Shown piece after piece: positions 60,573-61,001 of a stretch of DNA of 64,000 bases (the first letter of the stretch is position 1; each line of letters opens with the position of its first letter). Under the pieces are notes generated by a model. It was given only the letters and a program-made list of their open reading frames with translations. It was not told the origin of the DNA and did no database searches. Made by a program: the position numbers and the translations under genes. The DNA lies in the NCBI GenBank assembly GCA_016212085.1, contig JACRHL010000011.1, positions 1-64,000 on the forward strand, written 5' to 3'. This DNA comes from Nitrospirota bacterium. Lineage in GTDB: Bacteria > Nitrospirota > JACRHL01.

Positions 60573-60601
60573 GAGGTCTCTTTCCTTTCCGTTGCAATCC
60601 A

Positions 60602-60675
60602 CCCCGGTCATCCGGGGCGCTCGAAGAAACAAAAAAAGGCCGGAAGCCACCCACTCGAGGGGTAACCTCCGGCCT
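60602..60675 (-). terminator. terminator/attenuator-like structure in the nifH leader
   Basis: On the minus strand AGGCCGGA (60675-60668) pairs with TCCGGCCT (60644-60637), extended inward by wobble-containing pairs, and is followed by seven T (60637-60631): a full rho-independent terminator. Twelve bases further a second hairpin, CCCCGG-ATGA-CCGGGG (60617-60602), precedes the nifH ribosome binding site. No sigma-54 promoter is visible between it and nifH. Confidence 0.7.
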
Positions 60676-60745
60676 CCAGTTAACTGGTCAGCCAGATGCT
60701 GATCCGGGTTGTCACGCCGCCGGCCGAACCGGCGGTCGGGCGCGG

Positions 60746-60940
60746 TCAGTTCAATCGCCGCTTCGCCACCGTGTCGATCTGCACCACATGGGAATCCTGG
60801 ATGCGCAACTCCACCGATCCGAAGCGGACAGCGGAGATGCTCTCGACGATGTCGGTGATCACCTTCTTGTCGCACATGCCGGCGGTGTACCCGCGCTGTT
60901 CAAGCTCGATCCGTACCTTGCAATTGGACTCGCTGCACAT
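60746..60940 (-). CDS. DUF2292 (YezD-like) small protein
   Basis: A 64-residue protein. [20 protein letters not shown] and [17 protein letters not shown] match the DUF2292 family, which occurs in many bacteria near sulfur, nitrogen or metal genes without a known function. An N-terminal part has Cys residues in MCSESNCK. A longer frame from ATG 61009 exists, but the sigma-54 promoter lies inside it, so I chose ATG 60940, which has AGGG six bases upstream. It is the first gene of the nif transcript. Confidence 0.75.
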
Positions 60941-60985
60941 TGTGACCCTGTATCCGTTGGTGGTTAGGCCGACACCCGGACCTAA

Positions 60986-61001
60986 TGCACGGTCCTTGCC
61001 A
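60986..61001 (-). promoter_or_regulatory. sigma-54 type promoter of the nif operon
   Basis: Minus strand TGGCAAGGACCGTGCA matches the TGGCAC-N5-TTGCA consensus with two mismatches and the exact GG-N10-GC spacing. The start would be near 60975, 35 bases before the DUF2292 ATG and about 400 bases before nifH. Confidence 0.65.

Follow-up and report, generated by a model that had tools for sequence, protein, structure and literature searches.

A probable terminator/antiterminator RNA switch between a DUF2292 gene and nifH, with relatives in several bacterial phyla and phages

The nifH leader of this Nitrospirota bacterium contains what is almost certainly a conserved terminator/antiterminator switch, judging from its sequence and that of its relatives. 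We propose that the switch gates nif expression, and that a small DUF2292 protein, encoded upstream, traps the antiterminator hairpin. The probability of this explanation, taken as a whole, is about 0.66. Briefly, transcription would start at a sigma-54 promoter and the DUF2292 mRNA would be made first. RNA polymerase would then reach an intrinsic terminator, the 5' base of which is also the 3' strand of a small hairpin (GCU-GA-CCAG-NNAA-CUGG-A-GGC). By default, as sequence, covariation and computed energy suggest, the more stable terminator should form and transcription should end. If DUF2292, translated from this transcript, captures the small hairpin and keeps it in place, the terminator would be blocked and nifHDK would be transcribed. 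Acting in trans, the protein could do the same at a second copy, before nifE-nifN-nifB. The element is apparently an undescribed RNA on/off switch, present in several bacterial phyla and some phages.

The window, meaning the whole stretch of DNA analysed, is 64,000 nucleotides long. Features in and around the nif leader are collected in Table 1. A first-pass annotation had listed a sigma-54-like site, a DUF2292 open reading frame (ORF), a terminator with T7, a second hairpin and nifH. Re-reading of the sequence finds all of these in place. Similarly, the annotation saw no second promoter and, in the 58-nt gap between terminator and nifH, there is neither a sigma-54 nor a sigma-70-like promoter. 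The sigma-54 site, TGGCAAGGACCGTGCA, is located as described. Its significance, by sequence alone, did not stand, since matches with two mismatches are no commoner in the window than chance (5 seen and 12.9 expected). Hence, the promoter call rests on context. Sigma-54 is encoded in the same genome, and comparable sites precede both the nifE copy of the element, described below, and the DUF2292-nifH unit of another Nitrospirota family (CGGCACGCTGTTTGCT; locus L017). For the DUF2292 ORF, ending at 60746, the most plausible start is ATG 60940; a longer alternative, from ATG 61009, begins upstream of the promoter. The nifH product scores 461.8 bits with TIGR01287 (cut-off 394).

Table 1. Features in and around the nif leader of the window
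Feature	Position	Strand	Basis
Sigma-54-like promoter TGGCAAGGACCGTGCA (-24/-12)	61001-60986	minus	sequence match and context
DUF2292 gene, 64 aa, N-terminal extension with three cysteines (MCSESNCKV...AGMCD)	60746..60940	minus	PF10055
Putative antiterminator hairpin GCU-GA-CCAG-UUAA-CUGG-A-GGC	60672..60692	minus	alignments, pair counts; predicted -7.3 kcal/mol
Intrinsic terminator with T7; GGC is shared by its 5' base and the 3' end of the antiterminator hairpin	60631..60674	minus	folding, covariation
Small hairpin CCCCGG-ATGA-CCGGGG, between terminator and nifH ribosome-binding site	60602..60617	minus	sequence
nifH, first gene of nifHDK, behind the switch	59715..60572	minus	TIGR01287 above cut-off
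nifD, next gene of the operon	58170..59609	minus	TIGR01282 above cut-off
TTGTCGCA, candidate activator half-site, 182 bp upstream of the -24 element	61176..61183	minus	inference only
TTGTCGCA, second copy, 150 bp upstream of the -24 element	61144..61151	minus	inference only

The motif TTGTCGCA occurs three times in the window, twice upstream of this sigma-54 site. It is also found 125 bp upstream of the nifE sigma-54 site described below (L148:11108-11115, minus strand). Located upstream of both nif sigma-54 promoters (at -125, -150 and -182), it is a possible activator site unlike the classic NifA site, TGT-N10-ACA, of which there is none near the promoter. Beside nifH are DraT- and DraG-type genes (PF07357 and PF03747; 61293-62075, plus strand, and 62053-63036, minus strand). 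These Pfam matches suggest post-translational control of nitrogenase on top of the switch.

The spacer between the DUF2292 gene and nifH has a folding z-score of -3.2. Its terminator, with a predicted stem of -28.5 kcal/mol, is the strongest of the terminator-like sites between 55 and 62 kb. The first-pass annotation missed a conserved hairpin, at 60692-60672, that overlaps this terminator. Hence, the terminator belongs to a conserved element. The CCCCGG-ATGA-CCGGGG hairpin is not present in the related spacers of loci L003 and L017 and so lies outside the conserved switch. We also considered an AUCAGC/GCUGA pre-hairpin, which would pre-empt the antiterminator. This was dropped because it is conserved in neither L003 nor L017.

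In L003/L068, from another family of the same phylum, a DUF2292 gene is likewise followed by nifH. The spacer shares GGCTGACCAG-NN-AACTGGAGGCCGGA...TTCCGGCCTTTTT with the window, the remainder having diverged. A search of genome and viral contigs for close relatives of the DUF2292 protein gave no match because the protein diverges fast; the RNA motif is the better probe. The DNA probe CTGACCAGNNAACTGGAGGCC recovered 67 loci from 84,980 species genomes. Around 50 of these are intergenic, and the GGCC of the motif is the 5' base of an intrinsic terminator. They are found in Geobacteraceae, Nitrospirota, Chloroflexi, Clostridia, Treponema, Armatimonadota and others; phages also carry the element. 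We regarded matches inside genes, or without a terminator, as chance. They comprise 15 of the 67 genome loci, together with several viral loci, and the genomes of those 15 became our negative control. A covariance model, built from 51 sites, identifies two strong copies in the genome of the window, with 61.6 bits for that in the nifH leader. A Geobacter genome may have as many as about 15 copies and, in several genomes, most of these lie in one region of a contig. Note that, at gathering score, Rfam matched neither the element of the window nor those of 14 related loci, and the best permissive match was noise.

The element is a 21-nt hairpin, GCUGACCAG-NNAA-CUGGAGGC, positioned here between the DUF2292 gene and nifH, and its 3' end doubles as the 5' base of the terminator. 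GCU/GGC and CCAG/CUGG pairs make up the antiterminator fold, which is capped by an NNAA tetraloop and interrupted by a GA/A internal loop. When the terminator forms instead, the shared GGCC pairs with a distant GGCC ahead of the U-run. For the antiterminator stem, an alignment of 82 sites has 17 double-changed cells, compared to 2.6 in shuffles. Examples are eight swaps from A-U to G-C and seven from G-C to A-U. The terminator stem has 71 double-changed cells (20.7 in shuffles). Furthermore, the base common to both folds co-varies with its antiterminator and terminator partners (G/C/G 62, A/U/A 6 and U/A/U 4). A further search required complementarity and otherwise fixed just GA and A in the internal loop. 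The upper stems recovered were CCAG/CUGG (61), CCGG/CCGG (9), CUAG/CUAG (4) and CUGG/CCAG (2), which are variant counts and no unbiased census since loci were partly picked by motif. In computed energy, the terminator is more stable than the hairpin at 51 of 51 sites. Hence, we expect transcription to end here by default, unless some factor traps the small hairpin. Two exclusive folds that share a strand, as predicted here, place the element in the mechanistic class of terminator/antiterminator switches.

The second copy in the same genome (C6:72846-72908; 51.8 bits) is directly before nifE (TIGR01283, 670.7 bits, above cut-off). By eye, nifN-, nifB- and nifS-like ORFs follow. A sigma-54 site, TGGCACGATCCATGCT (one mismatch), is 81 nt upstream of this copy. 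The nifE start codon is only about 20 nt past the U-tract, so there is no room for another promoter and readthrough must be possible. The gap before nifH in L017 is similarly short. Given also that the nifH gap in the window lacks a promoter, nifEN and nifHDK would be transcribed only via the switch, barring an unusual promoter. The first-pass annotation had offered two readings of the leader: most transcripts stop after DUF2292, or the hairpin is an attenuator, possibly sensed by an RNA-binding factor or by DUF2292 itself. The latter is now strongly favoured. The terminator is one half of a conserved terminator/antiterminator pair, compensatory changes occur in both folds, and a further copy sits immediately ahead of nifE.

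The protein most consistently associated with the element is DUF2292. Among genomes or records with a real element, 40 of 44 encode it with a score above cut-off (one further genome is truncated at a contig end), compared to 3 of 15 genomes with chance matches (Fisher p 6e-7). In a Nitrospirota sample, it is present in 7 of 8 genomes with the element and in 36 of 288 lacking it (Fisher p 6e-6). No DUF2292 was detected in a few genomes with the element (G036, which is 96% complete, G408, G435 and G436). Looking from the protein instead, a structure-only scan of 73 distinct DUF2292 ORFs showed that 45 have the hairpin in the 200 nt downstream, compared to 0 of 73 upstream, 1 of 73 at 200-400 nt and 1.5% of shuffles. 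At loci fetched by protein alone, a hand tally gave about 18 of 32 with the hairpin. The order DUF2292, hairpin, terminator and true nifH recurs in three Nitrospirota families (G000, G048 and G118). Taken together, these sequence associations make DUF2292 the probable hairpin-binding factor.

Other arrangements occur. In Nitrospira (L198-L227), DUF2292 tends to precede two tandem hairpin variants that lack a terminator; the lower stem is longer in some (GAACU/AGUUC). The hairpin could thus have an additional effect on translation or stability. In Nitrospirae FK3.bin81 (L044, 2059-2220), which has no detected DUF2292 in its genome, tandem elements are present, the first with a terminator and the second without; the downstream gene may be part of a mobile element. 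On a Cytobacillus plasmid, the order is yezD, GCUGACUAG-ACAAA-CUAGAGGC with a terminator, cysH, a phosphate permease and sat. By eye, an S-box-like stretch is apparently upstream in the yezD-cysH leader. In Pseudomonas, where DUF2292 genes precede, by eye, a gene for a sulfate-binding protein, there is no clear hairpin.

The DUF2292 gene before nifH is the only one in its genome. The product scores 43.2 bits with PF10055 (cut-off 22), and so belongs to the family. The closest NCBIfam model is the sulfur starvation protein OscA (NF033785). With 24.4 bits, against a cut-off of 85, the nif-linked protein falls outside the OscA equivalog and is only a distant OscA/YezD relative. The cysteine-rich N-terminal extension occurs in exactly the three nif-linked Nitrospirota DUF2292 proteins, that of the window and two others. 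An AlphaFold model consists of a helix and a beta-hairpin (pLDDT 77, pTM 0.49). It matched no RNA-binding fold and Foldseek found no informative structural neighbour; a PDB sequence search was similarly uninformative. Among the papers covered by our literature search, apparently, none deals with DUF2292 function.

Outside nif, the genes behind the switch are mainly for sulfur assimilation, according to Pfam matches of representative genes. They encode ATP-sulfurylase, PAPS reductase, sulfite/nitrite reductase, MetK, Cys/Met PLP enzymes and a CysK-type enzyme. Rhodanese, DsrE-like proteins, TauE, sulfatase and sulfonate-type ABC transporters also appear. The remainder include an Rrf2 regulator, a corrinoid protein, a radical SAM protein (NifB-like by eye), nitrogenase-like component 1 and a NifH-like protein. 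Note that the Geobacter nitrogenase-like proteins tested are below nif equivalog cut-offs, whereas NifH, NifD and NifE of the window genome are above. In Geobacter L149-L156, about ten elements per genome precede sulfur, corrinoid, NifB-like and nitrogenase-like genes; the region is possibly an organosulfur reductase island. Since downstream genes are mostly sulfur-related, and OscA is the nearest model, we infer a sulfur-linked regulon from which nif control is derived. Consequently, sulfur or Fe-S status is the likeliest general signal, with somewhat better than even odds on the sequence evidence. That the nif form of DUF2292 senses Fe-S or oxygen, via its cysteine-rich N-terminus, is speculative and rather doubtful.

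Hairpin-terminator copies in viruses are L107, L245 (with near-identical L246, L249, L250 and L253), L257, L259 and L260-L262. In each, a short ORF ends 5-56 nt upstream, or touches the hairpin in the case of L259. The ORF of L107 is DUF2292. Likeness of the others to DUF2292, expressed as hhalign probability, is 94 for L257, 86 for L259 and a weak 18 for L245. The L245 and L257 proteins match PHROG 1551, of unknown function (E 7e-19 and 1e-4, respectively). Genes after the phage copies encode late regulators or sigma-like proteins (phrog_1190 and phrog_36), a terminase pair or, by eye, a portal-like protein. This pairing of protein and RNA, with no sulfur genes, argues that the protein works on the RNA. 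In L107 (1787-1852; IMGVR_UViG_2599185175_000001), DUF2292 and the hairpin-terminator are followed by the small and large terminase subunits, making this element a candidate late-gene gate. The phage hairpin-terminators of the L245, L246, L249, L250, L253, L257 and L260-L262 group have a compensatory UCU/GGA variant, and a late regulator or sigma-like gene is also present there. Searches of an annotated phage collection, by tblastn and distant blastn with the phage proteins and leader, gave no match.

Might the leader be simpler than we propose? Internal terminators set stoichiometry in many operons, and an ordinary intrinsic terminator after DUF2292, with leaky readthrough or an unseen promoter feeding nifH, would fit that pattern. 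However, this is very improbable given the overlapping conserved antiterminator with triple covariation, the promoterless 58 nt before nifH, the still shorter distance at nifE, and the same DUF2292-hairpin-terminator-nifH unit in three families. Ribosome-coupled attenuation, where translation of an upstream ORF decides the fold, is scarcely credible. While the DUF2292 stop codon is close upstream at many sites, many others, including nifE and most Geobacter copies, have no such ORF directly upstream. A leader-peptide attenuator, which needs a translated ORF upstream at every site, was rejected for the same reason. A very small riboswitch, with the hairpin itself binding a sulfur metabolite and DUF2292 merely a controlled gene, would account for the high sequence conservation, the sulfur regulon and a terminator overlap typical of riboswitches. 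Yet only about 21 nt are conserved, many copies are downstream rather than upstream of DUF2292, and, in phages, the partners of the hairpin are a DUF2292-like gene of their own and non-metabolic genes. Moreover, no single metabolite is common to nif and phage late genes. We thus consider a riboswitch improbable.

The switch could also be real but read by another RNA-binding protein, with DUF2292 as a co-factor, decoy or co-travelling protein of sulfur metabolism. The structural searches, which link DUF2292 to no RNA, and genome G036, with an element but no DUF2292, are consistent with this. Against it, DUF2292 is the gene that recurs beside the element across phyla and phages, and the genome of the window has no CAT_RBD antiterminator (the control was positive in 4 genomes). 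It has no ANTAR match either, though control genomes were silent too. Another reader is not likely. The direction of the effect is a separate matter. If DUF2292 binds, it very probably acts as an antiterminator, judging from which fold is conserved. It could equally favour termination instead. Binding in this opposite sense, promoting termination or blocking translation, would give negative feedback on nif or sulfur genes. Autoregulatory proteins often repress, and the terminator-less tandem hairpins after DUF2292 in Nitrospira would suit such a role. Nonetheless, repression is unlikely; the conserved hairpin competes with the terminator and does not help it, so hairpin binding should raise readthrough.

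DUF2292-mediated antitermination, if correct, would provide a molecular function for the widespread unknown family DUF2292/YezD/OscA. Phyla such as Chloroflexi and Geobacter-type Desulfobacterota would have an RNA switch that responds to sulfur. Nitrogenase would be controlled at a further step beyond the sigma-54 promoter, perhaps in line with the supply of sulfur or Fe-S. An unknown phage family would be explained as a late-gene gate. Tentatively, DUF2292/OscA/YezD and phage PHROG 1551 may belong to a single superfamily, so far undescribed, of very small antiterminator proteins that bind the same RNA hairpin. These would serve as a host sulfur-starvation switch, a gate for phage packaging or late-regulator genes and, in Nitrospirota, a cysteine-rich and possibly Fe-S-sensing final gate for nitrogenase. 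A short, sequence-specific RNA of this kind can be tested in E. coli and could serve as a small orthogonal antitermination tool. Our literature search, with most subscription papers and preprints outside its scope, found no description of the element. An unnamed prior sighting is possible; a survey of ncRNAs published in 2024, covering 50 genomes with Geobacter among them, reports many unnamed protein-binding candidates and a nifV motif (PMC11109978).

The element shares features with several known systems. Like the S-box (SAM-I) and other sulfur riboswitches, it would provide terminator-based control of sulfur genes. Unlike these, it is far smaller, has no Rfam match and is paired with a protein gene. 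OscA and YezD (NF033785 and PF10055) are of the same Pfam family as the nif-linked DUF2292, with sulfate transport or cysH-sat neighbours. They differ from the nif-linked proteins, which have a Cys-rich N-terminus, and no RNA partner of OscA or YezD was found described. Phage late genes are known to be controlled by antitermination, as with lambda Q, and by Alt/ArpU-type late switches. The viral copies are similar in having a small phage-encoded protein before a terminator and late genes. Unlike lambda Q and ArpU-type regulators, the protein is PHROG 1551 or DUF2292, and its proposed target is an RNA hairpin, not a DNA/RNAP site.

In mechanism, there is a parallel with BglG/SacY/LicT and their RAT sites. 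There, a small CAT domain traps a short hairpin, with asymmetric internal loops, that overlaps the 5' side of a terminator, and the protein gene is often within the operon it controls. Unlike BglG and LicT, DUF2292 has 45-64 aa, a helix and beta-hairpin and no PRD domains, and the hairpin sequence is unrelated. We rejected a BglG/LicT system as such, given the missing CAT_RBD protein. ANTAR proteins (NasR, AmiR and EutV) also bring about antitermination by means of protein-stabilised hairpins, and have a link to nitrogen genes in Geobacter and Klebsiella. Geobacter nif regulation was reportedly addressed by Ueki and Lovley in 2010, as cited in PMC8164766. ANTAR RNAs are dual hexaloops with A1 and G4 (PMC8164766). 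The element has no dual hexaloops, being a single hairpin with an NNAA tetraloop and a GA/A internal loop, and was rejected as an ANTAR RNA. By analogy, the switch would work like LicT/RAT and ANTAR antitermination, and it fits neither definition.
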